Source: Lysobacterales bacterium (lineage in GTDB: Bacteria > Pseudomonadota > Gammaproteobacteria > Xanthomonadales > Xanthomonadaceae). Taken from it: a DNA stretch of 46,008 bases. Positions within the stretch are counted from its first letter, which is position 1, and each line of letters begins with the position of its first letter. The notes below the pieces were generated by a model. The model searched no databases. It was not told the origin of the DNA and saw only the letters and a program-made list of their open reading frames with translations. Of this stretch, positions 7,781 through 30,798 are shown one piece after another. The stretch covers positions 1 through 46,008 of the forward strand of contig JAEKKX010000005.1 of NCBI GenBank assembly GCA_019510125.1, given 5' to 3'. The translations under genes were made by a program, and so were the position numbers.

Positions 7781-7850
7781 CGCCTTACCTCGTCCTTTCA
7801 TCGCGGCGCGGCCAGCGCGCCCATTCTCGTTGCCGATTCGCTCGTCGCCA

Positions 7851-10800: not shown

Positions 10801-13800
10801 AGGCCTTCCTCCGTCGGCAGCGGCAGCATGCCGGCAGTCCGTTCCAGATGCCGCACGACCGCGTCGGGCGGCTGCATGCCGCCGCTCGCCCACAACGGCC
10901 AGGCGATCGAGACGGTCCTGCCGCGCCTCAGGCCGCGGGCGACGAGGTCGTTCCGGTGGCGAGCGTATTCGTCCAGATAGGCGTTCGCGGTCGCATAATC
11001 CGACTGCCCCGGGTTGCCGAAGGCGGCGCTGACCGAAGAGAACAGCGCGAAGAAGTCCAGCTCGACGTCCTTGGTGGCCTCGTCGAGGTGGAACGTGCCG
11101 GCAACCTTGGGTTCGAGCACCTGCGCGAACTGTTCCGGATCCTTTCCGGTCATCAGTCCATCGGCGCTCCCGCCCGCGCAGTGCAGGATGCCGTGCAATC
11201 CTCCGCCGTGGACAACCAGATCGCTGACGAGCGCCGAAACGTCGTCGCGCGATCCCAGGTCGACACGTCGGTATTCGACACGCACGCCATGCTGCGCACG
11301 CAGCCGATCGAATCCATCGCTTCGCAGCGAGGCGGGATCGCCACGGCCCGTCAGCACCACCCGGGCATGTCGCGTCTTGCCGAGGACCTCGTCGGCGAAG
11401 AGCAGGCCGAGGCCGCCCAGGCCACCCGTGATCAGATAGACGCCATGCTCGTTGAAAACCGACTTGCCCGAACCGACATCCGGACGACGGCGCCAGCGCT
11501 TCCGCCAGAGCGACCCGTCGGCATCGAAACGGAGGGCGGTTTCCGGCAGGCAGGACACGGCGGCGGTCGCGAACGATGCCAGCATCTTCGCGGTCGTGTC
11601 CGCCGGACACAGGATCACCTGGCCGCTGAACCGTGAATGCTCCAGGCGCGCCGTCTTCAGCATGCCGGAAATGCCGGCGAGCGCTTCCCGCTTGCCACCC
11701 TGCGGGATCGCGATCTGCACCAGCACGTCACCCGTCGGGTTGTCCCGGAGCGTGGATTTGACGCGCTCGAAGCAGAGCGCGGCGCTGCGCGCATACCACG
11801 ACGCATGGTCGAGACCATCGGCCTCGGGCAGCGCATCCACGGCACATTCCGGCATGGTCGCGGCCAGGTCCGCCACCGGGATCCCGTCCAGCGCGCTGAT
11901 CAGCAGCCTGCGAGACCATGTCCGCGGGGCCGGGTCTTCCGGTCGTCCGGACACGCGATGCCACTCCGCTTCGGCGAAGATCGCGCCGATTCCGGACGGC
12001 GCGGCCGCGGGCGTCTCGAGGACGGCCCGATGCCGGGTTTCGGCAGGCGCGCTCGCACTGACCGGCTTCTTCTTTGCCGTCGCACTCTCGGCCTCCGGAA
12101 TCCAGCAGCGCTCCCGTGCGAAGGGATAGGTCGGCAGGGACAGGCGCTTCGGAGCGCGACGGCGCGGCAATCCCGACCAGTCGATTTCGCCGCCCTGCGT
12201 CCAGCGGACAGCCAGCGCCTCGAGCCCGCCCTCCTCCGCCGGCGCGGACGATGCGCCGGCGTGGACGGACGGTGTTGCGCCCTTCTTCGATGCGCGCACG
12301 CTTCCCGTGAAGATGTCGCTGCCGACCTCTCCACGCAGGTAGCGTGCGAATTTCTGCGCGGCCTCGGCGGGACTGCGGGCGACGAAGGCGAGCCGCTCCG
12401 CCATTTCGTCGCGGCCGACCTGCAGGGTGTACGCGAAGTCTTCGAAATCGAGGCCCTGCTTCTCCAGCGCCGCAGCCATGGAAGCGGCGTATTCCTGCAA
12501 CCGGTCCGGCGTTTTCGCCGAAAGCACGATCAGTTGCGGTTCGCCGTGGGCGTCGGCAGCGGGCGAACGCGGCTGCGGGACGTATTCCTCGAGCACCACG
12601 TGCGCGTTGGCGCCGCCGAAACCGAACGAACTGACGCCGGCCAGGCGCGGCGTCGCGCGCCCCTCGGCCGAGACCGGAGCGGCCCAGTCCCGGGTCTTGT
12701 CGACGATGTAGAACGGCGTGCCGGAGAGCTTGATGTAGGGATTGAGCTCCTCGAAATGCACGTTCGCCGGGATCTGCCGATGCTTGATCGCGAGCAGCAC
12801 GCGGAGGATGCCGGCGATGCCGGCGGCGGTTTCGAGGTGGCCGATGTTGGTCTTCGCGGAGCTCAGGCCGCAGTGCGCGGTGCCGTCCGCCGGCTTGCCC
12901 TGGCGCTTGTAGAGCTCGCCGAACGCCTTGGTCAGCGCCTGGATCTCGATGGGATCGCCGAGGCTGGTGCCGGTGCCGTGGCATTCGATGTAGCCGACGC
13001 GCGCGGGATCGACATGGGCCTTTTCGTAGGCCTCGATCAGCAACTCGGCCTGGGCCGCGGAGTTCGGCGCGGTCAGGGTGGTGACCTTGCCGCCGTGGTT
13101 CTCCGCGGTCGCGCGGATCACCGCGTAGATGTGGTCGCCGTCGGCCTCGGCCTTGTGCAGCGGCTTGAGCACGATGGCGCCGGAGCCCTCGCCGCGGACG
13201 TAGCCGTCCGCGCGCTTGTCGAACGACTTGCACTTGCCGTCGTTGCTGAGCATGCCCGCCATGCCGAACGAAATGTAGGCGGCCGGGCTGAGCATGACCT
13301 GCACGCCGCCGACGATCGCCATCTCGCAACTGCCGGTGTGGATCGACTCGATCGCACGATGCAGGGCGACCAGGGAGCTGGAGCAGGCGGTGTCGATCGG
13401 CGCGCTGGGTCCGCGCAGGTTGAGCAGGAACGAGATGCGGTTCGCGAGCACCGAATGCGAATTGCCGGAGGCCGAATAGCCGTCCAGGTCGATGTCCAGC
13501 CGGTTCATCAGGTCGACGTAGTCGTTCGTCGCCGCGCCGACGAACAGGCCGGTCCTGGTCCCCGAGAAGTCGGACACCCGGTGGCCGCTGTCCTCGATCG
13601 CCTTCCACACGGTCTCCAGGAAGATCCGCTGCTGCGGATCCATCATCTGCGCTTCGCGCCGGGAGATGCCGAAGAACAGCGCGTCGAACTTGTCGACCTC
13701 CTTCATGAAGCCGCCCCACTTGGAGTTCGACTTGTTGGCCTCCTTGAAGGGATCGCCGTAGAACTCCTCCCAGTTCCAGCGATCGCGGGGAATCACGGAA

Positions 13801-16800
13801 ATCAGGTCGTCGCCGTTGCGCAGGTGTTCCCAGAACTCGTCCAGGTCGTCCGACTGCGGCATCGTCCCGCTCATGCCGACGATGGCGATCGGCATGTCCA
13901 CGAAGCGGTTCACTGGGCGGAATTCCGCCGACGGCTGCGCGCGGGGCGCTTCGATCGCGAGCGGATCCCATCCCTTGCCGAAGCGGATCCCGGCGTCGTC
14001 CGCCCGGGGCGCCGCCGACACCGCGGCCGACCCGGCCGCCGCCGGGGACGCCGCGGCCGTCTTGCCGCCGTGGACCCGCGCCACCTCCTCGCTGCGCTCG
14101 GCCGCGAGATACTTCGCGACCTCCTGGATCGAGGGATAGTCGAAGAACAGCACCGGAGTCACGTCGACGCCGTAGACGCTGTTGATCTCGTTGGCGTAGG
14201 TCGTCAGGCCGATCGAGTCGAAGCCGAGGTCCAGCAGCACGCTGTCGGGCGAGATGTCCGCCTCGTCGAGCTTCAGGAATTCCATGGCGATGCGGGTCAG
14301 TTCCGCCTGCACGCTCGCCGCGTGGCCGCCCGCGGGCGAAGCCGCGCCGGTCGCGACGGAAGCATCCGAGGCCGCTGGCGACGGCGCCGCCGGCTTCTTG
14401 CGCAGTCCCCACGCGGTCTCGATCTTCTCCTGGACGCCCTCGAGCACGGCGAGCTGCGTCGCATCGGACGCGAGCGCGTCGATCATCGCCGCGGTGCCGG
14501 TGTCGGTCGCCAGCAGCTTCAGGCCGAGCGTCTTGGTGAACATCTGCTCGGTCTGCTCGTCGACGCGCATCCCGCCGTCGGCCCAGAGCGACCAGTTGAG
14601 GCTCAGCGTCTTGCCGCGGCGGCTGCCGGCTGCGCGCAGGCGTTCGCGCGCGAACGCGAAGCTGTCCATGTAATGGTTCGCGTAGCCGTAGTCCGCCTGC
14701 CCCGCGTTGCCGGCGACCGCCGCCATCGAGGAGAACAGCACGAAGAAATCGAGCGGATCGTCGACGGTCGCCGCATCGAGATTGTGGGTGCCGCGGATCT
14801 TCGGCGCGAGCACCGCGTCGAAATCCTCGCGGGTCTTGTTGCGGATGAACGAATCGCGCAGCACGCCGGCGCTGTGGATGACGCCGTTGATCCCGCCGAA
14901 GTGCGCATGCGCCTGGTCGACCGCCTGGCGCAGGCTGTCGGCGTCGCACACGTCGGCCGCCACGTAGAGGGCCTCGCCGCCGCAGGCGCGGACGCGCTTG
15001 CAGGCGGCCGCGATCGCCTCGTTTTGCGCAGAACGGCCGGTCAGCACCAGCCGCGCGCGGTAATGCGTGGCCAGGTATTCGGCGAAGATCAGGCCGAGGC
15101 CGCCGGCGCCGCCGGTGATCAGGTACACGCCGCCCTCGCGCGGCAGGTGCTCGGCGGACGCCGCCTCGGCATGCGGTTGCAGCGGGTATGCCTTGAGGCT
15201 GCGGACTTCGCGCGCGCCTTCGTGATGGCGCACGGAAACGGCGTCCGCGGCATCGTCGCCGAATTCGGTCCGCAGCAGCGCCGCGACGCGACCGATGCCC
15301 GCATCCGACCGCTCGATCCCGACCGCGCGGCAGCGAACCTTCGGGAATTCCAGGTGCATCGCCCGGAACAGGCCGGCGATCGCCTCGTATTCGGCCGGCG
15401 CCGTCGCATCGGCGACCGGGTACGCGAACAGCAGTTGCACGCGACGGTCGAGCTTGGCGTTCGTCAGCGCCCTGCAGATGGCCAGCGCCGCGTGCGCGCT
15501 GCGTTCGATGCGCGCGTCGCGGCGGGCGTCGTCGAAGGCGTCGTCATGCAGCGGCCAGGCGATGCAGAGCTTGTCGATGCCGCCTTCGACCACCGTCGAC
15601 GCGATCACCTGGTCGTAATCGGCCTGTCGGGCGGGGTCGAACGCGATCCTGTCTGGAGCGATCGCTGCGAACGCGTCCGCGGGCGTCGCCAGGACGAAGC
15701 GCTGATCGGGACGACCTGCGCCCGCCGCGTCGCGGAAGGCGTCGCGCAGCGTGGCGTCGTCGTCGAAGAACACGACCCGGTCGACGCCGCCCGCCGGCGC
15801 AAGCTCGATCGGGGCGCTGCGCCATTCCGGCGCGTAGAACAGCTTGGCGAACGCGGAGGTGTCGCCCGGCGCCGCAGGCTTGTGGACCTCGGCGATCGGC
15901 ACGCCGGTCGCTTCCTTGATGCGGACCAGGACCTTGCCGGTCGCGTCCAGGATCGTGACGTTCTTCCTCGAGACGCGCGACTGCTCCGCGCGCTCGTTCT
16001 TCATCTCGGTGACGTAGCTCCAGCAGTCCGCGGGCAGCGGATGCAGCACTTCCACTTCGCCGATCGAGAACGGGACCAGCATGTTGCCGCTGGAATCGCC
16101 CAGTTGCGCGGCGACGCCGGCCTGCAGCGATCCATCGACCAGCGAGGGATGCAGCAGCATCGAGGTCAGGTCGGCGAGGCGCGACTCCGGCAGCTTGAGA
16201 CGGCCGAGCGTCTCTCCCTCGCCCCGGTACACCTCCTGCAGTGACTGGAAGCTCGGCCCGAGGTCCAGTCCGAAGGACTTGAACAGCGGATACGCGTCGC
16301 GGCCTTCGATCGCCTTCTCGCAGCGCGCCTGGATCGCCGCCAGGTCCAGCCGCTCGTCGGCCGGCGCTTCCGCGCCGTAACTGATGCGGCCCTGGGAATG
16401 CAGGATCTTCTGTCCCGCGATCTCGCCGTAGACCTCGAAACGGACGCCGTCGCTGGCGGGCTTGAGCTCGATCCAGGCGTCCGCGGGCTCGCCCTGCTTC
16501 ACCGCGATCGGACTGACCCACACGATGTTGTGCAGCTTGCGCACGGGCCTGTCGGCGGCGAGTTCGCCGGCCTTGCGCGCCAGTTCCAGGTAGGCGACGC
16601 CCGGCAGCGTGGGCACGTCCATGACCAGGTGGTCGTAGATGAAGAATTCGCGCGCGTTGAACGATTTCCTGAAGAGCTGCCGCTCGAACGTGGATTCGTT
16701 GCTGTCGAGCAGCGGATGCAGCCCTGCGCGCATCGGCAGCGCGGCGGCGGGGTTCGCGGCCGGAACCGGCACCCAGTGGCGCTTGTCCGCGAACGGATAG

Positions 16801-19800
16801 GTCGGCAGCGACACGCGCCCGCCGACGGCGGCGCCCTGGGTGCCGCGCCATTCGGAGAACATGCCGTCGACCCAGAGTTTCGCGAACTTCGCCGGGTCGC
16901 GCCGGCGCGAAAGCAGGCCGATGACCTCTTCGCGCTCGGACCGGCTCATCAGCCGGGTGATCGGGTCGGCATTCTTGACGTTGCCGGAAAACACCCCTTC
17001 GTTGCGCTTCCCCGCAAGGAAGGCCGTCAACCGTTCGCACGCCTCCTGCGGACTCCGCGCCAGGACCGCGGCGCGATGGTCGAACGGCTTGCGGCCGGAC
17101 TGCAGGGTGAACGCGATGTCGCCCAGCGGAGGCAGCGTCGCCTCGCCGGAGAGGAAATCGAGCAGGCGGCGCGCGACATCCGCCAGTTGGGTCTCGGTCC
17201 GCGCCGACAACGGCAGGATGTGGACCGTGGCCGAAGGCGCCTGCGCCTTCGGCGGCGACACCCAGCTTTCGACGATGACGTGGGCGTTCGAGCCGCCGGC
17301 GCCGAACGAACTGATGCCCGCGCGCAGGGGCTGCGGGACGCCGTCGATTTCCCTCGGGAGCCAGGGCTCGAGCCGCTGCTGGACCTGGAAGAACGACTTG
17401 TCGAAATCGATGTGTTCGTTGAGCTCCGCCGAATGCAGCGACGGCACGAGCTGTCCGTGGCGCATCTGCAGCAGGATCTTGGTCAGGCTCGCGACGCCCG
17501 CCGCGGCCTCGAGATGGCCGATGTTGGATTTCAGCGAGCCTAGCGCGCAGCCGCGCCGCTCGATCCCCGAGTCCCGGAACGCGTTGTCGAGCGCGGAAAC
17601 CTCGAGCGGATCGCCCAGTTCCGTGCCCGTGCCGTGCGCTTCGATGTAGCCGATGCTCGCGGCGGGCACGCAGGCGCGCTGGATCGCCTCGCGGACGAGA
17701 TTCGTCTGCGCCTTGGGGTTGGGGACCACGAAACCGCTGGTGCGGCCGCCGTGGTTGACCACGACGCTCTTGATGACGCCGTAGATGCGGTCGCCGTCCT
17801 CGATGGCGCGGGCCAGCGGCTTGATGTAGACCGCGCCGACGCCCTCGCCCGCCACGTAGCCGTTCGCGCCGTGGCCGAAGCTGCGGCACACGCCGTCCTT
17901 CGACAGCGCGCCGCCGGACCAGTTGATGTCCCACTTGCTCTGATGGAGATCGAGGTTGACGCCGCCGACGATCGCCGAACCGCATTCGCCGGCATAGATG
18001 GCCTCGCAGGCGAGATAGAGCGCGGTGAGGCTCGACGAGCAGGCCGTGTCCACGGTCAGGCTCGGACCGGACAGGTTCATCGCGTACGAGACGCGATTGG
18101 CGATGCTCCAGAGGAAGGAGTTCGGCGCCTGGGATTCGCCGCAGTGCTTCTCTTCGACGCCGAGCGTCTGGTACATCGCCCAGACCGCGCCGACGTAAAC
18201 GCCGACCCGGTCCGCCGCGGCGGTGGAACCGATCGACTCGGGGTAGTAGCCCGCGTCCTCCAGCGTTTCCCAAGCCACTTCGACGAACAGCCGCTCCTGC
18301 GGATCGAGCCGTTCGGCGTCCTTCGGCGGGATGTTGAAGAACAGGGAATCGAACTTGTCCACGTCGTCGATGAAGCCGCCGCGGTAGCGCGCCGCGGGGC
18401 CGTAGCGCAGGCGCTGTTCGTAGCGCGCCTGCGGCAGTTCCTCGATGCAGTCGCGTCCCGAGCGCAGGTTCTGCCACAGCTCGTCGACGTTGCGCGCCTT
18501 GGGATAGCGCCCCGCCATGCCGACCACGGCGATGTCGAACACCCGGCGTTCCGCGGGCGCCGGCGCTTCGATTCCGCCGACGACGACCGGGGCCTCGGCG
18601 ATCGCGGGATCGGACGCGCGTTCACCGGCGTCCTCGACGACCGCGGGCGAGGCGTCCAGGGCATCAGACGTGTCCGGCGTGTCCGCGCATGCCTGCGCGT
18701 GCGCCTGCCCGGCCACGCCGTCGGACGGATGGGCGATGGATCCCGCGGCGTCTTCCGGCGCCGCTTTCAGTGCGTATTCGGTGTTCATTTCGCCGAAGGC
18801 GGCACTGGGTTGATTCGACATCACGAGCTCCGGAATGTTGGTCGATCGCGCGAACGACGCGTCGAGTCTTGCCACGATGATGTCGATCTGGGCGACATCC
18901 AGTCCCATGGGCAGCGCGATGCGCACGAGCCCGGAAGTCTCCGGGCGTCGGCGCATGCCGGCGTTGTGCGCAGCGGCGCGGATGCCCGTTTCCATGTACA
19001 GCCAGGCGAGGAACGAGGCGACCGGCGTTTCCAGCCGCGAAAACGCCGGCATGCGGCCAACGTCGACGAGTACGCAGTGGCCGCCGACCGGCGCCACGAC
19101 CGGGACGCCGCGCGCTTCCAGCGCGCGCCAGACGCGCTGTGCGGCCTGCATGCGTGCATCGAGCGAAGCCTCGAGGAAGCGGCGGTCGCGCATCGACAGC
19201 GCGATCAGCCGCCGGTCCAGCGGGTCGAGCGCGGTTCCCGCCTTGTCCGCGGCGTCGTGCGCGGCACGGTAGAGCGCGCTGTCGTTGGTCGCGATCAGCC
19301 CGCCCTTGTCGATGCAGAAGTCCTTGGGAAGACTCGCGACCACCGTATCGGCGCAGGCCAGCAGGGCGTGCACCGCGTCGAACAACCCGGGCCGTGCCGC
19401 ATCGGCGGCGTCGGCGCCATCGATGCGGACGGCGTCGGAGTGGGCGCCGTCGAAGCGCGCGTTCTCGAGGATCCGCGTCGCGTCGAGCACCAGCGGAATC
19501 GCGTGCGGCGCCAGCAGGGACCGGACCGCGCGCAGGTGCTCCACCGACACCGGCTGGCCGCCGGCGGCGTTGTCGCTGAGCTCGATGCAGACCATCGCCA
19601 CCTGGGTGGGCGACTTTTCCAGCACTTCGCGCAGCCCGGCCAGGTCGATGTCGGCCTTGCCCGGGACATCGGCCGCGAATTCGAAGAACGCGCGGGCGGG
19701 CAGTTCCTTGGGCCTGAAGTCGTTGCCGATCTGGTGGGCGATGTTCGTCGGGAACATCAGGTTCTGGCAGACGATGCCCTTCCTGGCCCAGGCGCGGTAC

Positions 19801-20162
19801 AGCGCCTGCTCGGCGGTTCTGCCGGACTCGGTAAACACGAAATGCGCGAAGGGGAACACCGAGCGCACGCACGCATCGACGTCGACCGGCTCCTGCATCC
19901 GGTCCCGGAGCGCGCGCATCCTGCGGTCGATCGCGGGCAGCGCCAGTTGCGCCCAGGAGTCGGTCTTCAGGTCGAATTCGATCGCGTCCGCCGGCAGGCG
20001 CATCGGGTTGTAGTGCGCCGCCGCGAGCGCCGCGACGCGGTTTCCGACGGAGGCGGCCCCGGGATCGGGCGCCCCTTCATTCAAACGGTCAATGACATTT
20101 TTTTTTTTCGCCGCCATCCGGGGGAAGGGCGACTGCATCGACAGGCGAGCGGACCACGGCAT
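7899..20162 (-). CDS. trans-AT polyketide synthase with N-terminal tryptophanase-like PLP domain (lyase-KS-DH-KR-ACP-KS-KR-ACP-KS-ACP)
   Basis: 4,087 residues from the ATG at 20162; ATGs at 20138 and 20117 are alternatives, none with a good ribosome binding site. Residues about 25-435 follow the tryptophanase / tyrosine phenol-lyase family: ESGRTAEQ, NAAGGQPVS, LDATRILENARF (PLP Asp), SLPKDFCIDKGG with the presumed Schiff-base Lys280, and GGHCVLVD. Then come KS1 (about 540-965, Cys708), DH (about 1149-1420), KR (about 1440-1895; TGGAGGLG, YGYAN), ACP (Ser1983), KS2 (about 2092-2520, Cys2260), KR (about 2560-3110), ACP (Ser3212), KS3 (about 3300-3725, Cys3466, HGTGT) and ACP (Ser3985). No AT is present. 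Oddities: the DH has Asp for Gly in HxxxGxxxxP; the last ACP reads GVVSS instead of GxDS; KS3 has SIGH for NIGH. The C-terminus is acidic and docking-like (ending DYERVTF). The ORF overlaps the DUF2156 gene. The substrate of the lyase domain is unknown. Confidence 0.95.
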   Translation of the reverse strand: MPWSARLSMQSPFPRMAAKKKNVIDRLNEGAPDPGAASVGNRVAALAAAHYNPMRLPADAIEFDLKTDSWAQLALPAIDRRMRALRDRMQEPVDVDACVRSVFPFAHFVFTESGRTAEQALYRAWARKGIVCQNLMFPTNIAHQIGNDFRPKELPARAFFEFAADVPGKADIDLAGLREVLEKSPTQVAMVCIELSDNAAGGQPVSVEHLRAVRSLLAPHAIPLVLDATRILENARFDGAHSDAVRIDGADAADAARPGLFDAVHALLACADTVVASLPKDFCIDKGGLIATNDSALYRAAHDAADKAGTALDPLDRRLIALSMRDRRFLEASLDARMQAAQRVWRALEARGVPVVAPVGGHCVLVDVGRMPAFSRLETPVASFLAWLYMETGIRAAAHNAGMRRRPETSGLVRIALPMGLDVAQIDIIVARLDASFARSTNIPELVMSNQPSAAFGEMNTEYALKAAPEDAAGSIAHPSDGVAGQAHAQACADTPDTSDALDASPAVVEDAGERASDPAIAEAPVVVGGIEAPAPAERRVFDIAVVGMAGRYPKARNVDELWQNLRSGRDCIEELPQARYEQRLRYGPAARYRGGFIDDVDKFDSLFFNIPPKDAERLDPQERLFVEVAWETLEDAGYYPESIGSTAAADRVGVYVGAVWAMYQTLGVEEKHCGESQAPNSFLWSIANRVSYAMNLSGPSLTVDTACSSSLTALYLACEAIYAGECGSAIVGGVNLDLHQSKWDINWSGGALSKDGVCRSFGHGANGYVAGEGVGAVYIKPLARAIEDGDRIYGVIKSVVVNHGGRTSGFVVPNPKAQTNLVREAIQRACVPAASIGYIEAHGTGTELGDPLEVSALDNAFRDSGIERRGCALGSLKSNIGHLEAAAGVASLTKILLQMRHGQLVPSLHSAELNEHIDFDKSFFQVQQRLEPWLPREIDGVPQPLRAGISSFGAGGSNAHVIVESWVSPPKAQAPSATVHILPLSARTETQLADVARRLLDFLSGEATLPPLGDIAFTLQSGRKPFDHRAAVLARSPQEACERLTAFLAGKRNEGVFSGNVKNADPITRLMSRSEREEVIGLLSRRRDPAKFAKLWVDGMFSEWRGTQGAAVGGRVSLPTYPFADKRHWVPVPAANPAAALPMRAGLHPLLDSNESTFERQLFRKSFNAREFFIYDHLVMDVPTLPGVAYLELARKAGELAADRPVRKLHNIVWVSPIAVKQGEPADAWIELKPASDGVRFEVYGEIAGQKILHSQGRISYGAEAPADERLDLAAIQARCEKAIEGRDAYPLFKSFGLDLGPSFQSLQEVYRGEGETLGRLKLPESRLADLTSMLLHPSLVDGSLQAGVAAQLGDSSGNMLVPFSIGEVEVLHPLPADCWSYVTEMKNERAEQSRVSRKNVTILDATGKVLVRIKEATGVPIAEVHKPAAPGDTSAFAKLFYAPEWRSAPIELAPAGGVDRVVFFDDDATLRDAFRDAAGAGRPDQRFVLATPADAFAAIAPDRIAFDPARQADYDQVIASTVVEGGIDKLCIAWPLHDDAFDDARRDARIERSAHAALAICRALTNAKLDRRVQLLFAYPVADATAPAEYEAIAGLFRAMHLEFPKVRCRAVGIERSDAGIGRVAALLRTEFGDDAADAVSVRHHEGAREVRSLKAYPLQPHAEAASAEHLPREGGVYLITGGAGGLGLIFAEYLATHYRARLVLTGRSAQNEAIAAACKRVRACGGEALYVAADVCDADSLRQAVDQAHAHFGGINGVIHSAGVLRDSFIRNKTREDFDAVLAPKIRGTHNLDAATVDDPLDFFVLFSSMAAVAGNAGQADYGYANHYMDSFAFARERLRAAGSRRGKTLSLNWSLWADGGMRVDEQTEQMFTKTLGLKLLATDTGTAAMIDALASDATQLAVLEGVQEKIETAWGLRKKPAAPSPAASDASVATGAASPAGGHAASVQAELTRIAMEFLKLDEADISPDSVLLDLGFDSIGLTTYANEINSVYGVDVTPVLFFDYPSIQEVAKYLAAERSEEVARVHGGKTAAASPAAAGSAAVSAAPRADDAGIRFGKGWDPLAIEAPRAQPSAEFRPVNRFVDMPIAIVGMSGTMPQSDDLDEFWEHLRNGDDLISVIPRDRWNWEEFYGDPFKEANKSNSKWGGFMKEVDKFDALFFGISRREAQMMDPQQRIFLETVWKAIEDSGHRVSDFSGTRTGLFVGAATNDYVDLMNRLDIDLDGYSASGNSHSVLANRISFLLNLRGPSAPIDTACSSSLVALHRAIESIHTGSCEMAIVGGVQVMLSPAAYISFGMAGMLSNDGKCKSFDKRADGYVRGEGSGAIVLKPLHKAEADGDHIYAVIRATAENHGGKVTTLTAPNSAAQAELLIEAYEKAHVDPARVGYIECHGTGTSLGDPIEIQALTKAFGELYKRQGKPADGTAHCGLSSAKTNIGHLETAAGIAGILRVLLAIKHRQIPANVHFEELNPYIKLSGTPFYIVDKTRDWAAPVSAEGRATPRLAGVSSFGFGGANAHVVLEEYVPQPRSPAADAHGEPQLIVLSAKTPDRLQEYAASMAAALEKQGLDFEDFAYTLQVGRDEMAERLAFVARSPAEAAQKFARYLRGEVGSDIFTGSVRASKKGATPSVHAGASSAPAEEGGLEALAVRWTQGGEIDWSGLPRRRAPKRLSLPTYPFARERCWIPEAESATAKKKPVSASAPAETRHRAVLETPAAAPSGIGAIFAEAEWHRVSGRPEDPAPRTWSRRLLISALDGIPVADLAATMPECAVDALPEADGLDHASWYARSAALCFERVKSTLRDNPTGDVLVQIAIPQGGKREALAGISGMLKTARLEHSRFSGQVILCPADTTAKMLASFATAAVSCLPETALRFDADGSLWRKRWRRRPDVGSGKSVFNEHGVYLITGGLGGLGLLFADEVLGKTRHARVVLTGRGDPASLRSDGFDRLRAQHGVRVEYRRVDLGSRDDVSALVSDLVVHGGGLHGILHCAGGSADGLMTGKDPEQFAQVLEPKVAGTFHLDEATKDVELDFFALFSSVSAAFGNPGQSDYATANAYLDEYARHRNDLVARGLRRGRTVSIAWPLWASGGMQPPDAVVRHLERTAGMLPLPTEEGLAAFKRCLESGMVNAMVLYGTVDRLDASLGQDAMERASALPAAGAGRPSRPQGSLLDKQVRSEVLGILSEVLLLPEERIQPDALLNEYGLDSIGVANFVRIVNERYSLDLAPALLFEYPTYEAFCGHLLDAHRERLADHHGKGSETMADAEIANPAIATDDAGISPAAAVVDVRATGDIDVAIVGISATMPGADSAAAFWRNLIAGVDPITEVPAERWDWRGSGEGAAPPRGVRWGGFVADVDKFDAGFFEIAPGEAALMDPQQRLFLQSAWNAIEDAGHRAADLAGTRTGVFVGLSGFDYSEVIRASGIGSVAQSATGMAHCLLPNRLSYLLDLRGPSEAIDTACSSSLVAVHRAVEAIAGGDCEMAIAGGVNLMLAPSLQSALGHAGMLAGDGRCKTFDRNADGYVRSEGCAAVLLKRLDRAVADGDEIYGVVKGSAVNHGGRAMGLTAPNPNAQAEVVAEAYRRAGVDVAHVGLVETHGTGTPMGDAVELNGLRKAFGELASRTGGDAGLAASRECMVSSVKTSIGHLEAASGIASLIKVLLSMRHRTIPGLLHFTELSPQIRLDGTRFRIARETRAWQAFEGPAGERLPLTAGVSSFGFGGVNAHVVVQEHAPAQPPTGATADRGLSRLIVLSAKTREQLHQRAAALAEYLDADAAAEGVDLARIAYTLQTGRDGMAHRLGLRAASLEELSKALHAFAADGRVPAGGHCGEPERTSESMSSIDRDPQLKRMIVDKWIENGDHGAILELWSRGVDIDWNALYGDRRPRRVHLPGYPFARSRHWVDTFHASTAGVAPQEPHAPGPIEASSAAQRPATPTVQAPATTPKALAVRFIRRALSQQLQVPPESLPLDRTLLEMGVVSSGIASLVRQVNTTLDLDLVPSLMFEHPTIDGFATYLSGIAADALLRHAVPDEAAQPAAVVAEATRQDVDDQDVRHVLQDRDLIDKVLWKQDASDEDYERVTF

Positions 20163-21372
20163 CCCCCCAGGGCATGGCGAGCGCGACCTCGATGGCGGTG
20201 TGGTTCTCGGTATCCGCCGTCTGCGTCCGCGAAGGATCGGCGATCATCATGATGATGTCGATGACGCTGTCCGCGCTGCCGCTCTCGGCCTTGCGGCACA
20301 GGAAGATGGTCTGCGCGTGCGGCCGGAACTTGTTCTTGAACTGGAAATTGCCCTGGTCGTTGAAGATGCCCTGGGCATGCAGGTCGTCGAGCAGCTTGTC
20401 GATGCCGGGGTCGGCGTTCGGGGAGCGCTCGATGCGGCATCCGTAGGTGCCGCCGAGGCTGAGCAGGGTCCGTCCTTCCGCCCGCAGTCTTTCGATGATG
20501 CCGACGATCGCGAATTCGAGTCCGCCCCGCGGCATGTGCGGGCCGTAGAACTCCAGGTCCATCAGGTAGCCGTTGTCGGACGTGCGCAGCGGCGAGATCA
20601 GGACCACGTTCTGGAGCACGCCGTCGACGCGGGTCAGGAACAGCCGGTGCCGGGGATGCAGCGTGCCGTCCAGGATTTCCTGGCGTGCGGTCCTGACCAG
20701 CGGATTGACCTTGGTGCGGCCCGCGCACCACTCGTCGATGACGCGCGCGATGTCCTGGGCGACGGCGCTGTCGCTCCCGCAGACGTACTCTTCCAGCGTG
20801 CAGGCGCCGCTTTTCCGGAACGCCGACAACTGGTTGCGCAGGCGATGCATCGGACCGCCCTCCAGGGAAAACCCCGGGAGGTCGTTGATGCGCTGGACGA
20901 CGCCGAACGGCGTGGCCGTGAACGGCACCCCGGCGACCGAGGCGATCGGCAGGTGCGACAGGAAATGGAGCTGGTAGCCCTTGGCCTCGCAGTGCGCGAG
21001 AAGCTCGCCGGCGACCGCGTCGAAATACTCGTCCGGACCGGTGTACGCGTACACCAGCACGATCTTGCGGTAACGGTTGTAATGCAGGTAACCGCGCCGT
21101 TCGCTGCCGACGAACAGATTGGGTGCGATTTCAGCGATGCCGCGCGAAGCGGCGCCTTCGTTCTTGTGGGCGTCGAACAACGCTTCCGCCCATGGCCCGA
21201 TCAACGGATGTCCAAGCAAGTCCTTTTGCAGCATCAACACCGGTGACGGGTGGATGCCGGATGCCACGTTTGGTGCTGGAGCGTCGTTCGGGCCTTCGAC
21301 ACGAGGAGCTGCGGTTGCCTCTTCCATAGACGTGCTCGACGCTGATCGAACGATGATTGCTTGCACGTCCAT
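20089..21372 (-). CDS. DUF2156 / lysyl-phosphatidylglycerol synthase C-terminal-like protein
   Basis: 427 residues from the ATG at 21372, preceded by the purine run AAGAAAG. The open frame begins at 21450 with a very basic stretch that I regard as untranslated. The core (about residues 80-390) shows the DUF2156 pattern: RLRNQLSAFRKSG near the centre, then LDLEFYGPHMPRGGLEFAIVGIIERLRAEG and LLSLGGTYGC. The family fold is a pair of GNAT-like halves, and the best-known members (MprF) move an amino acid from aminoacyl-tRNA to a lipid. There are no membrane segments, so lipid modification is not obvious. It sits between a free ACP and the lyase-PKS and overlaps the latter by 74 bases, so it is very likely part of the same operon. 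A role in loading an aminoacyl or acyl group onto a carrier protein is inference only. Confidence 0.7.
   Translation of the reverse strand: MDVQAIIVRSASSTSMEEATAAPRVEGPNDAPAPNVASGIHPSPVLMLQKDLLGHPLIGPWAEALFDAHKNEGAASRGIAEIAPNLFVGSERRGYLHYNRYRKIVLVYAYTGPDEYFDAVAGELLAHCEAKGYQLHFLSHLPIASVAGVPFTATPFGVVQRINDLPGFSLEGGPMHRLRNQLSAFRKSGACTLEEYVCGSDSAVAQDIARVIDEWCAGRTKVNPLVRTARQEILDGTLHPRHRLFLTRVDGVLQNVVLISPLRTSDNGYLMDLEFYGPHMPRGGLEFAIVGIIERLRAEGRTLLSLGGTYGCRIERSPNADPGIDKLLDDLHAQGIFNDQGNFQFKNKFRPHAQTIFLCRKAESGSADSVIDIIMMIADPSRTQTADTENHTAIEVALAMPWGDAVVRSPVDAVALPPDGGEKKKCH
20098..20108 (-). other. A11 homopolymer in the DUF2156 / PKS gene overlap
   Basis: On the coding (minus) strand eleven consecutive A residues lie inside the overlap of the two genes, read as Glu-Lys-Lys-Lys by the DUF2156 frame and Lys-Lys-Lys-Asn by the PKS frame. 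The DUF2156 stop codon is a few bases further on (20089-20091). A transcript lacking one A, or a +1 ribosomal shift, joins the DUF2156 frame directly to the PKS frame. The run is outstanding in DNA this GC-rich. Confidence 0.9.
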
Positions 21373-21427
21373 GCAGTTCTTTCTTGCATGGACATGGCGC
21401 TTCCTGATTTTTGTCTGACGCTGCTTT

Positions 21428-21760
21428 TTACGTCGTCGCCGCGGCATCACTGGTTTGCAACTGCTCCGCGAACATCGTGCCCAGCGTGTGGGCGTGATGG
21501 TCGGTGAAGTAGTTGGCCAGGTCGTTGATGTTGAAATTCTCGAACAGCAACGTCTTCGGCAGGCTTCCGAAATCGTTTTCCAGCCTGCGCAGGATCTTGA
21601 GCACGAGGAACGAATCGATGCCGTACTCCCGGAAGGGAGTGAACGCGTCGAAAGGGTGTTCGGCCGGGTCCAGCGGTGGATCGGCTTCCTCGAAGGTATC
21701 CAGCACCACCCCGCTGAGATACGACTCCGTGAGCTCCTGCAGCAAATCTCGGTTGGTCAT
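21428..21760 (-). CDS. stand-alone acyl carrier protein
   Basis: 110 residues, ATG at 21760. The phosphopantetheine site is Ser50 in YGIDSFLVLKI, followed by FGSLPKTLLFENFNINDLANYF, the helix II-III pattern of ACPs embedded in trans-AT synthases. The last ACP of the GNAT-type PKS in this window has a very similar SKTLLFE segment. It is the first gene of the leftward operon, 55 bases before the DUF2156 start. It could be the carrier for a starter or side unit, or the donor ACP of the beta-branching cassette; its resemblance to integrated PKS ACPs makes the first option at least as likely. It lacks the Trp six residues after Ser that marks beta-branch acceptor ACPs. Confidence 0.88.
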   Translation of the reverse strand: MTNRDLLQELTESYLSGVVLDTFEEADPPLDPAEHPFDAFTPFREYGIDSFLVLKILRRLENDFGSLPKTLLFENFNINDLANYFTDHHAHTLGTMFAEQLQTSDAAATT

Positions 21761-21913: not shown

Positions 21914-22074
21914 GCAGAGTTCAACAGTTTCCGCGGGCGGCCGGATTATCCCATTGGATCGATGTCAGTCGTTTGACGGCGCCCCCGTCCAACCGGACCG
22001 CCCCCCTCCGGCGGCGCCCGCGGACGGCGCCTCCGAGGGCGGTCATGGGTCCGCGCGCCGGGTGGCGGCGGGAA

Positions 22075-22107
22075 TGCGAATCGAGGCCGATCCGAGTGCG
22101 AATCGCA
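22075..22107. repeat. pair of TGCGAATCG elements upstream of the P450 promoter, candidate operator
   Basis: TGCGAATCG occurs at 22075-22083 and again at 22097-22105, 22 bases apart, which is two helical turns. The second copy extends to TGCGAATCGCA, a palindrome around one central base. The pair ends about 28 bases before the P450 -35 box. The arrangement fits a dimeric regulator, but the regulator is unknown. Confidence 0.4.
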
Positions 22108-22134
22108 AGCGCCCGGAAGGCGAAAAAGCGTTGC

Positions 22135-22162
22135 TTGCAAAGCCCCGGGCGGGGGCTATACT
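22135..22162 (+). promoter_or_regulatory. sigma70-like promoter of the P450 gene
   Basis: TTGCAA (22135-22140) and TATACT (22157-22162) with a 16-base spacer, about 40 bases before the GTG start. TATACT differs from the consensus by one base. Confidence 0.65.
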
Positions 22163-22201
22163 CGCCCCGCCATCAGCGCGCACAAGGCATGGAGTAAGCA
22201 A

Positions 22202-23512
22202 GTGGAAGCCCAGGTCGAAACGATCCCGCAGACCCCGATCCTGCCGGAAGAGATGACTGCAGCGCTGATCGATCCCGCCACCTACGCCGACATCCCGCGC
22301 CTCACCGAGGTCTATGCGTGGCTGAGGCAGCACATGCCGCTGGGCGTTTCCAAGTCGCGTTACTTCGACCCCTTCTGGGTCGTGACCAAGCACGCAGACA
22401 TCCTCGAGGTCAGCAAGAACAACAAGGTCTTCCGCAACTCGGACCGCGCCACGATCCTCACCGATCGCTACACCGACGCGCTGGTCCGCTACCTGCGCGA
22501 CGGCAGCCCGCACCTGGCGCGCACCCTCGCCCACATGGACGACCCCGACCACCGCAAGTACCGGGCGCTGACCAGCCAGTGGTTCATGGCGTCGAACCTG
22601 GCGCGCCGCGAGGAGACGATCCGGGCGATCGCGCGCGAATTCATCGACGAGATGCTGGCGGCCGGTCCGGAATGCGATTTCGTCAAGCAGGTGGCGGTGC
22701 GCTATCCGCTGCGGGTGATCATGCAGATCCTCGGCGTGCCGATCGAGGACGAGCCGCTGATGCTCAAGCTCACCCAGGAGATCTTCGGCAACCTCGACGC
22801 CGACATGAACCGGACCGGCGCCGCCAAGCAGACGGCGGAACAGGCGCTGCTCAACCTCAACGGCGCGATCGACACGTTCTTCCAGTATTTCGACGGCATC
22901 ACCCGCGACCGTCGCGCCAACCCGCGGGACGACATCGCCACGGTGATCGCGAACGGCATGATCGAGGGCGAGCCGATCGGCAATTTCGAGGCGATGTCCT
23001 ACTACTCGCTCGTGGCGACCGCGGGACACGATACCGTCAGTTCGTCGATCGCCGGCGCGATGCTGGCCCTGTGCGAACATCCGGAAGAGTTCCGCAAGGT
23101 CAAGGCCGATCGCGCACTGATCTCCGGCCTGGTCGAGGAATCCCTGCGCTGGTCCACCCCGGTCCGCCACTTCATGCGGACCGCGGCGACCGACTACGAA
23201 CTGCGCGGGCAGCGGATCAAGGCGGGCGACTGGCTGATGCTGTGCTACCTCTCCGGCGACCGCGACGAGGAGGTCTTCGAGGACCCGAACGCGTTCCGCG
23301 TGGACCGCACGCCGAACAAGCAACTGTCGTTCGGCTTCGGCGGCCACATGTGCCTGGGCCAGCACATGGCCAGGCTCGAAATGCGCGTGTTCTTCGAGGA
23401 ACTGTTCGCGCGGGTGTCCTCGCTGGAACTCGCCGGCACCGCCGAGCACAGCCGGGCGGTGTTCGTGGGCGGGCTGAAGGTGCTGCCGATCCGCTACGAA
23501 ACCGCACACTGA
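22202..23512 (+). CDS. cytochrome P450
   Basis: 436 residues from a GTG start; GGAG lies seven bases upstream, and an ATG at 22190 is closed at once by a stop. It is a soluble bacterial P450 of normal length with the I-helix AGHDTVSSS (from residue 274), ExxR at Glu313-Arg316 (ESLRWSTPVRHFMR), and the haem loop FGFGGHMCLGQH with ligand Cys384. It has no membrane anchor, so it would need ferredoxin and reductase supplied elsewhere. Its place within the PKS locus, divergent from the ACP operon with a shared control region, suggests tailoring (hydroxylation or epoxidation) of the polyketide. The site of oxidation cannot be read from sequence. Confidence 0.95.
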   Translation: MEAQVETIPQTPILPEEMTAALIDPATYADIPRLTEVYAWLRQHMPLGVSKSRYFDPFWVVTKHADILEVSKNNKVFRNSDRATILTDRYTDALVRYLRDGSPHLARTLAHMDDPDHRKYRALTSQWFMASNLARREETIRAIAREFIDEMLAAGPECDFVKQVAVRYPLRVIMQILGVPIEDEPLMLKLTQEIFGNLDADMNRTGAAKQTAEQALLNLNGAIDTFFQYFDGITRDRRANPRDDIATVIANGMIEGEPIGNFEAMSYYSLVATAGHDTVSSSIAGAMLALCEHPEEFRKVKADRALISGLVEESLRWSTPVRHFMRTAATDYELRGQRIKAGDWLMLCYLSGDRDEEVFEDPNAFRVDRTPNKQLSFGFGGHMCLGQHMARLEMRVFFEELFARVSSLELAGTAEHSRAVFVGGLKVLPIRYETAH

Positions 23513-23558
23513 AGCCGGACGCACCGAAGCAGCGCCCACGCAAGTCGCGCGCATCGCG

Positions 23559-23582
23559 ACGTCGCGCCCGGGAGCGCGACGT
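23559..23582. terminator. hairpin between convergent P450 and hydratase genes
   Basis: A perfect 9-bp inverted repeat (23559-23567 with 23574-23582, 6-base loop) abuts the stop codon of the hydratase. There is no T tract on either strand. Its position between two converging genes suggests a bidirectional transcription stop. Confidence 0.5.
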
Positions 23583-24377
23583 TCACTGCTCCCAGGGGAA
23601 CAGCCCCGCCTCCACGTAGCGCTTGATCGCGCGCAGGTTGCCGGGGTCGGTGAACACTTCGAGGTTCCCGGCGATCGCGGCGTCGCGGCATTCGGCCAGG
23701 GTCGGCCCGAATCTCGAGACGTACGCCTTGTAGCGCCCCAGCGCGACCTTCGACAGCCGCCGCAGGCGCATCACGTGGCGGCGGAGCAGCGGCTCCGCCT
23801 GCGCTTCGAATCCGTCGACCAGCCCCCACTCGGCCGCGACCCTGGCCGGGATCGCCTGGGTGGACAGGGTCAGCGCATGCGCCTTCTGCAGGCCGACGCG
23901 GCGGATCAGGAACGGCAGCACGCACGCCGGGTACAGGCCGAACAACAGTTCCGACAGGCTGAACTGCGCGGTCTCGTCGGCGAGCACGAGATCGCAGGCG
24001 GCGACGAAGCCCATCCCGCCGGCGTTCGCCTTGCCGCGGACCAGCGCGATCGACACGAACGGGCCGGTCGCGAGTTTCGTCCACAGGTCGTACATGGGAC
24101 CCGGGCCGTCGTACGCCGCGTACGCGGGATCCGCGCCGCGCGAAAGTTCGCCGAAGTCGGCGCCGAAGCAGAAGAAGTCCGGCAGGCCGCTGAGCACGAC
24201 GATGGTCGCGCGTTCTTCGCAGATCGCCAGCGCCTGGCTGCATTCGGCGATCAGTTGCGCATTGATGGCGTTCTTCGCGGCGGGACGATCGAACTGCAGG
24301 TAACAGACCGTGTCCTCCATCCGCGCCTTGATCGTGCCGAACGCGGGGAAGACGATGCCGGTGGGATTCGCGCTCAT
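23583..24377 (-). CDS. PksH-like enoyl-CoA hydratase (ECH1) of a polyketide beta-branching cassette
   Basis: 264 residues, crotonase fold. KNAINAQLIAEC, FFCFGADF (oxyanion region), GKANAGGMGFVAACDLVLAD, FSLSELLFGLYPACVLPFLIRRVG and LSTQAIPARVAAEWGLVD match the PksH branch of trans-AT clusters better than fatty-acid beta-oxidation hydratases. In that family ECH1 dehydrates the HMG-ACP-like intermediate to a glutaconyl form before ECH2 decarboxylates it. It lies 34 bases after the decarboxylating KS and almost certainly shares its transcript. AAGGA lies 11 bases upstream of the ATG. No ECH2 or HMG synthase gene is in the window. Confidence 0.85.
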   Translation of the reverse strand: MSANPTGIVFPAFGTIKARMEDTVCYLQFDRPAAKNAINAQLIAECSQALAICEERATIVVLSGLPDFFCFGADFGELSRGADPAYAAYDGPGPMYDLWTKLATGPFVSIALVRGKANAGGMGFVAACDLVLADETAQFSLSELLFGLYPACVLPFLIRRVGLQKAHALTLSTQAIPARVAAEWGLVDGFEAQAEPLLRRHVMRLRRLSKVALGRYKAYVSRFGPTLAECRDAAIAGNLEVFTDPGNLRAIKRYVEAGLFPWEQ

Positions 24378-24411: not shown

Positions 24412-25629
24412 TCAGCGCGGGCGCTGCCAGCACAGCGCGGTGTTGATGCCGCCGAAACCCATGCTCAGGGTCAGCGCGTTCTCGATCCGGTGGGGCACGG
24501 CGGCGGGACCGGTCCAGCGCATGCCCGGATCGATCGGGTCGTCGAGGTTGCGCGTCGGATGCAGCGCGCCGGCCCGCATCTGCAGCAGGGTGGCGGCGAC
24601 TTCGACCGCGCCCGCGGCGGTCAGGCCGTGGCCGACGAGGGCCTTGGTCGCGTTCAGCCAGGCGCCCGCCAGTCCGCTCTCGCGCAGGGCCGCCAGTTCG
24701 GTCTCGTCGCCGACGACCGAGCCGGTGCCGTGCGGATTGACGTAGTCGACGACGGACGCCTCCCATGCCGCCCGGCCGAGCGCTTCGGCGATGGCGCGCT
24801 TCTCGCCTTCCAGCGACGGGTCGGGATTGCGGTTGGCGTCCATCGCCACGCCCCAGCCGGCGAGGGTCGCGTACGGCGCGACGCCGCGGCTGCGCGCGCG
24901 GGTTTCGGATTCGATCACCAGCGCCGCGGAACATTCGCCGTAGATGAAGCCTTCGTGTTCGCGATCGAACGGTCGGCAGGCCTCGCCCGGCCGGTCGGCG
25001 AAACGACGGCCGCCCATCGCGCCGATCGCATGGAACCCGCGGCATTCCCAGTAGGACAGGTCCATCAGTCCGCCGAGCGCGATGCAGGCGTCGACCTGCC
25101 CGCTGCGGACCGCCTGCGCGGCCTGGACGATCGCCATCTGGCCGCTGGCGGACGCCGCGCCGACCGTCATGGCCATGCCGCGGATGCCGAACTGCGACGT
25201 GCACAGGCCGCACAGGTCGGTGTCCATGAAGGTCATGCCGTAGCTCGGCCGCAGGAAGGCCGCCCGGTCGCGGTAGGCGTCCTGGGTCAGCACCAGCTCG
25301 CGCTGCTGCAGGTTGGAGCCGCCGACGACGAGGCCGATGCGGTCCGCCGCCAGGTCGGCCAGGCCCGATTCGTCCCAGGCCTCGTGGAGGACCGCGAGCG
25401 CGGCGAGCGTCGAGAGCGACGCGGTCCGCAGCAACTGCCGCGGGATCGCATCGGGCAGGGCCAGTTCCCCCATTTCCGCGCCGATGAAGGCCGAATCGCG
25501 CTGCCGGCCGGGGCGCTGCATGATGTCGAACGCGCCGTCTCCGCGCAGCAGGGCTTCGCCGAAGGCGCGCTTGCCCTGGCCGATCGCGGACACGACGCCG
25601 ATGCCGGTGACGACCAATGCTTCCGTCAT
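24412..25629 (-). CDS. PksF-like decarboxylating ketosynthase (active Cys replaced by Ser)
   Basis: 405 residues from the ATG at 25629 (TEALVVTGIGVVSAIG); the frame stays open to 25707, but the extra 26 residues do not resemble a KS start. It is a FabF-like thiolase fold with the nucleophile loop GAASASGQ, so the usual Cys is Ser160 (codon TCC). The catalytic His motifs PHGTGS and VGHGLTAAG are kept. KS proteins with Ser at this place in beta-branching cassettes decarboxylate malonyl-ACP to acetyl-ACP, the nucleophile for HMG synthase. The downstream ECH1 supports this. It lies 106 bases after the kinase gene with no AT-rich promoter between, so co-transcription with the two-component system is possible. 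Confidence 0.88.
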   Translation of the reverse strand: MTEALVVTGIGVVSAIGQGKRAFGEALLRGDGAFDIMQRPGRQRDSAFIGAEMGELALPDAIPRQLLRTASLSTLAALAVLHEAWDESGLADLAADRIGLVVGGSNLQQRELVLTQDAYRDRAAFLRPSYGMTFMDTDLCGLCTSQFGIRGMAMTVGAASASGQMAIVQAAQAVRSGQVDACIALGGLMDLSYWECRGFHAIGAMGGRRFADRPGEACRPFDREHEGFIYGECSAALVIESETRARSRGVAPYATLAGWGVAMDANRNPDPSLEGEKRAIAEALGRAAWEASVVDYVNPHGTGSVVGDETELAALRESGLAGAWLNATKALVGHGLTAAGAVEVAATLLQMRAGALHPTRNLDDPIDPGMRWTGPAAVPHRIENALTLSMGFGGINTALCWQRPR

Positions 25630-25735
25630 GTTGCAGTCCAGTTCCCGTCCGGTTGGGGGCCGTGCCGCGAATCGGGCGGCGACGGCGAGCGGCGAGTGTG
25701 CGTGCAAGCCGCGCGTGCCGCAAGCGCCGCCGCGG

Positions 25736-28467: not shown

Positions 28468-28618
28468 CCGCTCCAACCTCCGTTCCGTCGATCCGGTAGG
28501 CGGATGGGACTCCGGACCGCGACGCCGACGGGATGCCTGCCGTCCATGCGCCCGGGAGTCGCGAGAGTGCCGGCGAGGGCGCCGTCCTGGAGTCCGGGGG
28601 TGGCACGAACACCGCAAA

Positions 28619-28627
28619 ACGATAGCA
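28619..28627 (-). promoter_or_regulatory. possible extended -10 promoter of the two-component operon
   Basis: Within the 221-base gap between the aldehyde dehydrogenase stop and the regulator start, the minus strand has TGC followed by TATCGT, an extended -10 form, in the only AT-richer patch of the gap. There is no good -35 box. The remaining gap is GC-rich and shows no gene. Confidence 0.35.
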
Positions 28628-28688
28628 CACCGGTCCGCCGGCCACGGCCGCTCCATCGCCGCGGGGCGGGGGGTGCGGTCCCGCCCGG

Positions 28689-30194: not shown

Positions 30195-30219
30195 GTGGGG
30201 GGTCTCCGGAAAACGGGCG

Positions 30220-30768
30220 TCAGAACGTCGGCGGCGTGCTGGCGCTGACGATCACCACGTCGCAGTCGCCGAGGTTGCGGAAGCGATGCGGCTTGCGGCA
30301 GTCGAAGTAATAGCCTTCGCCCGGGCCGAGCACCCGCACCTGGTCGGCGACGGTGATCTCGACCTGGCCGGCCAGCACCACCCCGCCCTCCTCGCCCTCG
30401 TGGGTGATCATCCCCGAGCCGGTGTCGCTGCCCGGCTCCATCACCTCGCGCAGCACGCACATCTGGCGCCGCGGGCGGTGGTGGCCGACCAGGAAATAGT
30501 GGATGTCGTTGCTGCCCATGTCGGGCTGCTCGTCCACGCCGTAGAACGGCTGGTCGGTGGGCCGGATGTCGATGTCCAGGGTGAAGAAGTCGGCCATCGA
30601 GATCGGGATCCCGTCCAGCACCTTCTTCAGCGAGCTGACCGAGGGGCTGACCTTGTTCTGTTCGATCAGCGAAATGGTGCTGTTGGTGACGCCGACCCGC
30701 TTCGCCAGCTCGCGCTGGCTGAGGCCCTTGTTCTTGCGGACGAGCTGGAGGCGTGCGCCGATATCCAT
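30220..30768 (-). CDS. puuR: PuuR-like XRE-cupin transcriptional regulator
   Basis: 182 residues. An N-terminal helix-turn-helix (residues 1-60; GLSQRELAKRVGVTNSTISLIEQNKVSPSVSSLKKVLDG is its core) is followed by a C-terminal cupin (about 105-180; THEGEEGGVVLAGQVEI, YYFDCRKPHRFRN). In E. coli PuuR represses putrescine-use genes and putrescine relieves it. Here the gene is divergent from an omega-aminotransferase and upstream of a PuuC-type dehydrogenase, which supports a polyamine-responsive repressor. A candidate operator pair lies in the 138-base divergent gap. Confidence 0.9.
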   Translation of the reverse strand: MDIGARLQLVRKNKGLSQRELAKRVGVTNSTISLIEQNKVSPSVSSLKKVLDGIPISMADFFTLDIDIRPTDQPFYGVDEQPDMGSNDIHYFLVGHHRPRRQMCVLREVMEPGSDTGSGMITHEGEEGGVVLAGQVEITVADQVRVLGPGEGYYFDCRKPHRFRNLGDCDVVIVSASTPPTF

Positions 30769-30798
30769 GGGTTCCGGTCGACTTTGGTGTAGCGGGAT

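Follow-up and report, generated by a model that had tools for sequence, protein, structure and literature searches.

What is a lyase of the tryptophanase/tyrosine phenol-lyase (TPL) superfamily doing at the very front of a modular polyketide synthase (PKS)? The question is raised by a 46,008-nucleotide stretch from a Lysobacterales bacterium (GenBank assembly GCA_019510125.1, contig JAEKKX010000005.1, positions 1 to 46,008; hereinafter the window, meaning that whole stretch), in which a trans-acyltransferase (trans-AT) PKS opens with a pyridoxal phosphate (PLP)-dependent lyase domain that runs directly into the first ketosynthase (KS1). Its sequence, its place in a phylogenetic tree and its active-site substitutions identify this domain as a leinamycin-type SH (thiocysteine lyase) domain. 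We put at roughly 85% the probability that it acts as a PLP-dependent (thio)cysteine C–S lyase, working with a DUF2156 protein and an acyl carrier protein (ACP) encoded just upstream, and that KS1 extends the product. The features that carry this reading are the following (ORF, open reading frame; DH, dehydratase; KR, ketoreductase; AF2, AlphaFold2).

7899..20162, minus strand: trans-AT PKS ORF of 4087 aa with the domain order SH-KS-DH-KR-ACP-KS-KR-ACP-KS-ACP
about 18830..20057, minus strand: SH (thiocysteine-lyase-type) PLP domain, residues ~36-445 (PF01212, phmmer, active-site table, AF2 and Foldseek, tree)
19323-19325, minus strand: codon of the PLP lysine of the SH domain
17285..18542, minus strand: KS1, directly after the SH domain, in a clade of 13 post-SH KS domains

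A PLP-dependent lyase in front of KS1

The Pfam family Beta_elim_lyase (PF01212) matches residues 80-385 of the SH-PKS with an e-value of 3e-24, and the segments LDATRILENARF (19452-19487), LPKD (19320-19331) and GGHCVLVD (19062-19085) all fall within the domain. Foldseek searches with its AF2 model (pLDDT 88.1, pTM 0.87) retrieve fold-type-I lyases, and sequence and model together point to a site of that fold type, with the PLP Lys, Asp, Arg and Asn and the carboxylate-binding Arg present. A preliminary description of the window had already reported a complete PLP β-eliminating lyase at the front of the PKS, before KS1, and had named structure prediction as a check; profile match, motifs and model confirm it, the predicted fold being that of a fold-type-I lyase. 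Its PLP lysine, Lys280, is correct when numbered from the ATG at 20162, and becomes Lys265 from the start that it used, the ATG at 20117. In line with that description, a Pfam scan of the 4087-aa ORF found no ACP between the lyase domain and KS1.

Relationship to SH domains

In phmmer searches the top PDB match of the domain is 9cen_A (e-value 8e-51), above every listed TPL, and Foldseek ordered by e-value also places 9cen first (4e-33); the title of the 9CEN record names the thiocysteine lyase (SH) domain of the guangnanmycin A pathway. A literature search with polyketide synthase found no paper on this structure, judged by title among the matches listed. In a tree of 52 rows, 16 PKS copies and five leinamycin (LNM)-type rows, namely four plasmid loci and 9cen, form a single clade (support 100/100) apart from 31 stand-alone lyases. 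The label LNM-type for the plasmid loci derives from an LnmK-family neighbor (three of the four, those with annotation) and from their place in this tree. Excluded from it were the stand-alone lyases L025, L030 and L109 (weak, partial or short; L, G and C numbers are our handles for loci, genomes and contigs), the own-copy duplicates L088 and L107, and L026, a 935-aa frame; the DUF-SH loci of G598, G642 and G663 are in no tree. The tree carries flags for long branches (among them L112, L111 and 9cen) and for uneven composition, and the long branches make the branching order within the SH clade unsure.

The active site was compared with those of Pantoea TPL and Escherichia coli TnaA. The functional roles of the compared TPL residues are known background. 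They are supported in part by the accessible text of PMC3870968. In TPL numbering, the window's domain keeps Gly99, Arg100, Phe123, Asn185, Asp214, Thr216, Arg217, Ser254, Lys257, His343 and Arg404; replaced are Tyr71, Thr124, Lys256, Met379 and Arg381, and TPL positions 288-291 are without a counterpart. T124P, C259F, R381H and the missing counterpart of 288-291 are common to the window, the 13 other PKS rows and the four LNM-type rows compared; the PKS rows of this comparison end at the domain end, before TPL Phe448. Substrate-site residues are thus changed, in agreement with the earlier remark that residues setting Tyr/Trp specificity were not clearly recognizable. Because the PLP-site residues are retained, the scaffold-only relic, one of the roles suggested before, is disfavored.

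These comparisons also bear on whether a TPL or a tryptophanase has simply been fused to the PKS, acting on free Tyr/Trp or on an aminoacyl carrier. The domain does belong to the same superfamily, with its PLP residues kept and with TPL structures reaching TM-scores as high as that of 9cen, but all four NCBIfam tryptophanase/TPL models that match it do so far under their cut-offs: the tryptophanase models TIGR02617, NF053783 and NF009709 give 74.5 vs 825.8, 108.6 vs 750 and 159 vs 285, respectively, the fourth match is 118.6 vs 720.7, and the curated score of the TPL model TIGR02618 is not reached. Tyr71, Thr124 and Arg381, expected of a TPL, are absent, Lys256 and Met379 are replaced as well, 288-291 has no counterpart, and the domain falls outside the 31 stand-alone lyases in the tree. 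On the scores, the substituted residues and the tree place we rejected an identity as TPL or TnaA, and such a fusion is hardly credible.

Upstream ACP and DUF2156 partners

Two further ORFs on the same strand precede the SH-PKS gene.

20089..21450 (domain about 20200-21330), minus strand: DUF2156 (LPG_synthase_C) ORF of 453 aa, partner of the SH domain (PF09924, e-value 7e-19)
21428..21760, minus strand: stand-alone ACP, counterpart of the N-terminal ACP in ACP-DUF-SH-KS proteins (PF00550; phmmer to relatives)

The window thus has the gene order ACP-DUF2156-SH-KS, spread over three ORFs. The preliminary description missed both upstream ORFs and called the SH domain of leinamycin-type synthases a different arrangement. 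That was wrong, or at least incomplete: the domain is itself an SH domain and, counting the two ORFs, the order ACP-DUF2156-SH is identical. What stands of its interpretation is the PLP lyase of the TPL/tryptophanase superfamily; the dismissal of the leinamycin parallel does not.

Across 20 PKS loci (12 of a first set, four further genome loci and four actinobacterial plasmid loci), DUF2156 stands directly before SH in every case, and on one ORF in 19. An ACP lies ahead of DUF2156 within the same ORF in 12 of the 20, and the window and G061 encode it separately; in the four plasmid loci a weak ACP match precedes DUF2156, in G477 the ORF preceding DUF2156 ends in two ACPs, and a domain scan of the G207 locus detected no ACP next to DUF2156. 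In four loci (G013, G115, G062 and G100) an upstream gene encodes a PKS protein whose last domain is a KS, so that this KS and the ACP-DUF-SH unit look like a module split over two proteins; other genes lie between, and we infer that these two proteins meet. The KS that follows SH is also shared: 13 of the 14 loci tested form one clade (100/100), the exception being G477, in a tree that omitted KS matches shorter than 350 aa, including the cut KS of G199.

The fusion is not unique to the window; searching for it in other PKS loci, as the preliminary description had proposed, finds it elsewhere. A search of the family for SH matched 18 of 198 genomes (E <= 0.001) at 24 places, 10 of them (in nine genomes) in frames of at least 3500 aa and 14 in frames below 1000 aa; matches occur in eight of 11 genomes of the genus and in two other genera of the family. 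A scan for close relatives, covering 84,980 species by one genome each, yielded two confirmed loci, both from Massilia. Sampling 398 genomes from the phylum gave matches in 19 at 1e-20, and the places in PKS frames besides the two own copies are those of G207 and G477. DUF2156 was found in 14 of 395 family genomes at 15 places, 14 of which are in frames of at least 1941 aa, the window's alone being in a 555-aa frame. The phylum SH search and the DUF2156 search scored at most four candidates per genome, so that misses are possible. The window's SH domain is 46-59% identical to family PKS copies and 36-39% identical to plasmid LNM-type copies, and its DUF2156 is 39-41% identical to LNM-type DUFs.

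The AF2 model of DUF2156 (pLDDT 84.8) has as its top Foldseek match 5vrv, the DUF2156 domain of a putative lysyl-PG synthetase; it also matches L-PGS/A-PGS and MprF and, more weakly, Sba18 and FemX. We take these structural matches to be users of aminoacyl-tRNA (for Sba18, judging by the title).

Proposed sulfur chemistry

From the observed domain identity, active-site conservation, gene order and family context, read by analogy with the leinamycin literature, in which the role of the DUF as the adding enzyme is likewise a proposal, we suggest the following scheme. The ACP would hold an α,β-unsaturated, probably β-branched, acyl chain, and DUF2156 would add the sulfur of (thio)cysteine to the β carbon of this acyl-ACP. 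The cysteinyl amine would then form an aldimine at the PLP site of Lys280, with the carboxylate held by the equivalent of TPL Arg404, and elimination at the Cβ–S bond would leave -SSH (or -SH) on the chain, with pyruvate and ammonia as the other products. KS1 would extend the sulfur-bearing chain. In the leinamycin proposal, as given in the accessible parts of two sources, the DUF adds thiocysteine to a carboxylated β-branch and the SH domain then cleaves the C–S bond (PMC7618002, PMC8479088). By this analogy, the release of a thiol into the chain, listed among possible roles in the preliminary description, agrees with an SH function. Given the resemblance of the DUF2156 model to aminoacyl-tRNA-using transferases (MprF C-terminal domain, FemX, Sba18), tRNA might serve as the carrier of the cysteinyl donor, a looser suggestion than the slippage site considered below.

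Whether the group installed is a persulfide bears on a variant of this scheme, in which an SH-type domain installs a plain thiol from cysteine rather than -SSH from thiocysteine, its branch differing from the leinamycin family. The gap between the identities within the family PKS copies (46-59%) and to the plasmid LNM-type copies (36-39%) would suit such a branch, as would the weak cysteine lyase activity of LnmJ-SH that is mentioned in the accessible text of PMC8479088; no sequence feature, on the other hand, separates the thiol from the persulfide type. We regard this variant as possible, if on the unlikely side.

Candidate genes for the proposed β-branch occur in the gene neighborhoods. A discrete KS and an enoyl-CoA hydratase (ECH), the latter of which we take to be of the β-branching type, lie next to the window's ACP.

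24412..25707, minus strand: discrete KS (NCBIfam PRK07103, 597 vs cut-off 445), with GAASASG at the expected active-site Cys motif, by eye
23583..24377, minus strand: ECH (NCBIfam PRK07112, 358 vs cut-off 250)

The motif reads GGASASG in the five relatives whose stretch reached it. A hydroxymethylglutaryl-CoA synthase (HMGS) was found in all 11 SH-bearing genomes searched and in four of 14 control genomes, and the plasmid LNM-type loci with annotation (three of four) have LnmK, an ACP and HMGS beside the DUF-SH PKS. The window's cluster is cut by the contig end; in this genome the only HMGS found is on C7, some 71 kb away from the SH domain of that contig, and the stretches retrieved between the two contain PKS genes.

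Several observations weigh against the proposed lyase function and its setting. In Foldseek, several TPL structures have TM-scores of 0.82-0.85, equal to or above the 0.82 of 9cen, so the fold alone is not decisive. TPL Tyr71 is Arg in the window and H, R, N or F in relatives, which makes the acid catalyst of the SH domain uncertain. The window's DUF2156 and SH lie in different frames, the sole exception among the 20 loci. The HMGS counts cover SH-bearing and control genomes rather than SH-free relatives; moreover, the only HMGS found in the genome is on C7, the contig with the second SH locus. β-branching at the window's SH module is uncertain. Cysteine and thiocysteine lyases are inseparable by sequence, and both the lyase activity of the SH domain and the product of the cluster are predictions, made from sequence and by analogy.

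If the lyase function is nonetheless as proposed, the PKS would carry not an unexplained tryptophanase but a sulfur-installing module, and the cluster should consequently make a polyketide with an in-chain thiol or persulfide that is extended further rather than released. Such modules would then help to locate sulfur polyketides beyond the actinobacteria.

The A-run between the DUF2156 and SH-PKS genes

The frame change between the two genes falls on a homopolymer.

20098..20108, minus strand: run of 11 A (A11) on the coding strand, in the DUF2156/SH-PKS ORF overlap, at the frame change

The DUF2156 and SH-PKS ORFs overlap by 74 bases in different frames. A11 exceeds every other A/T run in the 4.08 Mb genome, where seven runs reach at least 9; with independent bases and the composition of the window, 0.3 runs of at least 9 and 0.007 of at least 11 would be expected. 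Because the genome exceeds the count of this simple model, the rank of A11 is the safer statement. The 4087-aa ORF encodes lysine 109 times by AAG and 10 times by AAA, and three of these AAA codons lie within A11. The corresponding linker of G061, the closest relative (SH 59% and DUF 75% identical), contains an in-frame A10, the longest of nine runs of at least 9 in the G061 genome; AAA is commoner as a lysine codon in G061 (68 AAA vs 100 AAG). With the window and G061, A-runs were measured in 17 linkers, and the longest run in each of the 15 other DUF2156-SH linkers is of 2 to 4. A frame break as the norm of the family was rejected, 19 of the 20 loci being unbroken.

The break may be a sequencing error or a slipped allele, either of which weighs against a function in slippage. 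An error of sequencing or assembly, with the real gene encoding one DUF-SH-PKS as in relatives, is a serious contender that we place somewhat short of even odds: the single frame of 19 of the 20 loci and the in-frame A10 of G061 speak for it, but the 44 contigs of the assembly and the start of the window's contig inside a PKS gene suggest short reads, with which errors in long homopolymers are presumably uncommon. We consider it improbable that the gene is decaying or a dead scaffold, its didomain no longer working with the DUF2156 and SH frames apart. The break is indeed confined to the window among the 20 loci, and SH diverges faster than DUF (59% vs 75% to G061); however, the DUF2156 ORF spans the whole domain, the SH-PKS ORF runs for 4087 aa without a stop, the PLP-site residues are intact, and the two domains may well function on independent polypeptides.

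It is also conceivable, though doubtful, that the A-run is a kept site of transcriptional slippage (as in Thermus dnaX), by which the cell would set the ratio of free to tethered DUF2156. In the window, the unslipped frame would give free DUF2156 and the slipped one a covalent DUF-SH-PKS; in G061, with the fusion in frame, slippage would release free DUF2156. Runs of at least 9 occur at the junction in both (A11 at the frame change in the window, A10 in G061), but these are two homologous loci and not independent cases, which weighs against such a function. We know of no PKS in which the ratio of free to tethered enzyme is controlled, and if the site is real it would offer an initial clue to tethering under frame control in assembly lines. 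According to the accessible parts of two sources, selection against slippage is visible in many bacteria at A/T runs of nine, and Thermus dnaX uses such a run (PMC1088944, PMC3711429). A literature search linking transcriptional slippage with polyketide synthase found nothing related, by title and abstract.

Neighboring genes

Beyond the ACP, the discrete KS and the ECH, two further genes deserve mention.

22202..23512, plus strand: cytochrome P450
2..7801, minus strand: second PKS gene, truncated at the end of the contig, opening with a CurA/GphF-like loading region of GNAT type

The P450 was matched only in the window and G061 among 12 loci searched. The minus-strand ORFs 22043-23554 and 23494-24243 have no Pfam match; third-position GC favored other frames there, which proved to be those of the P450 and the ECH. 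The PKS gene at 2-7801 opens with about 450 aa of weak AprA-MT2-like/adaptor sequence, followed by the GNAT (CurA, GphF) region; its first 470 aa are matched by G061 alone among the 12 loci. CurA/GphF-like GNAT regions act in loading, and the protein of this gene probably starts the chain. A role of the SH domain in loading at the start of the pathway was accordingly rejected, since this next gene holds a GNAT-type loading region and SH is preceded by the ORFs for the ACP and DUF2156.

The same genome encodes a second ACP-DUF2156-SH-KS PKS (G000:C7:97284-98450, L004), on a contig that bears further PKS genes. In G061, PKS genes extend from the contig start to an HMGS (G061:C12:1-31779; L117, L118), a stretch that may continue the G061 cluster, which breaks off where C3 ends. 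Beside the window's cluster lie a histidine kinase and a sigma-54 response regulator (25736-29691, minus strand). Aldehyde dehydrogenases, a class-III aminotransferase, an alanine dehydrogenase-type gene and an ABC transporter with a solute-binding protein (28689-45687) look like amine uptake and breakdown and are probably unrelated to the cluster.

Comparison with known systems

Like TPL and tryptophanase, the window's domain has the fold and PLP site of its superfamily; it differs from them in several substrate-site residues and in its clade. With the leinamycin-family DUF-SH didomains (LnmJ, GnmT, WsmR; 9CEN) it shares the order ACP-DUF2156-SH, the PLP residues and the class-specific substitutions, and in both HMGS occurs in the same genomes as SH. 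Milano 2013, in its accessible text, identified the domain before the LnmJ lyase as DUF2156 (PMC3870968). Unlike in that family, where a thioesterase (TE) comes after SH, the window has a KS after SH, and its ACP and DUF2156 are separate ORFs; the terminal leinamycin module reads KS-ACP-ACP-DUF-SH-TE, and the window has one ACP before the DUF. A single ACP and a module without TE are features that it shares with the non-leinamycin DUF-SH PKSs (PMC7618002, Angew 2024), and Meng 2021 distinguishes, in the part available, three non-LNM groups of DUF-SH PKSs (PMC8479088).

A parallel in order is in Table 2 of Milano 2013, which gives CP-DUF2156-PLP3-KS (CP, carrier protein) for F8TUA6 of Lysobacter sp. 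ATCC 53042 and A9ECY5 of Kordia algicida, the accessible text describing no experiments on these proteins (PMC3870968). The preliminary description had allowed that the fusion might already be characterized: it was tabulated there, though not studied by experiment in that text. The likeness is one of tabulated order, including the KS that follows, and the tabulated entries are single proteins, compared with three ORFs in the window. The window's domain is thus a further member of the known DUF-SH modules, KS-followed as in the Lysobacter and Kordia entries, and the novel point is the unusual A-run junction between its DUF2156 and SH genes.
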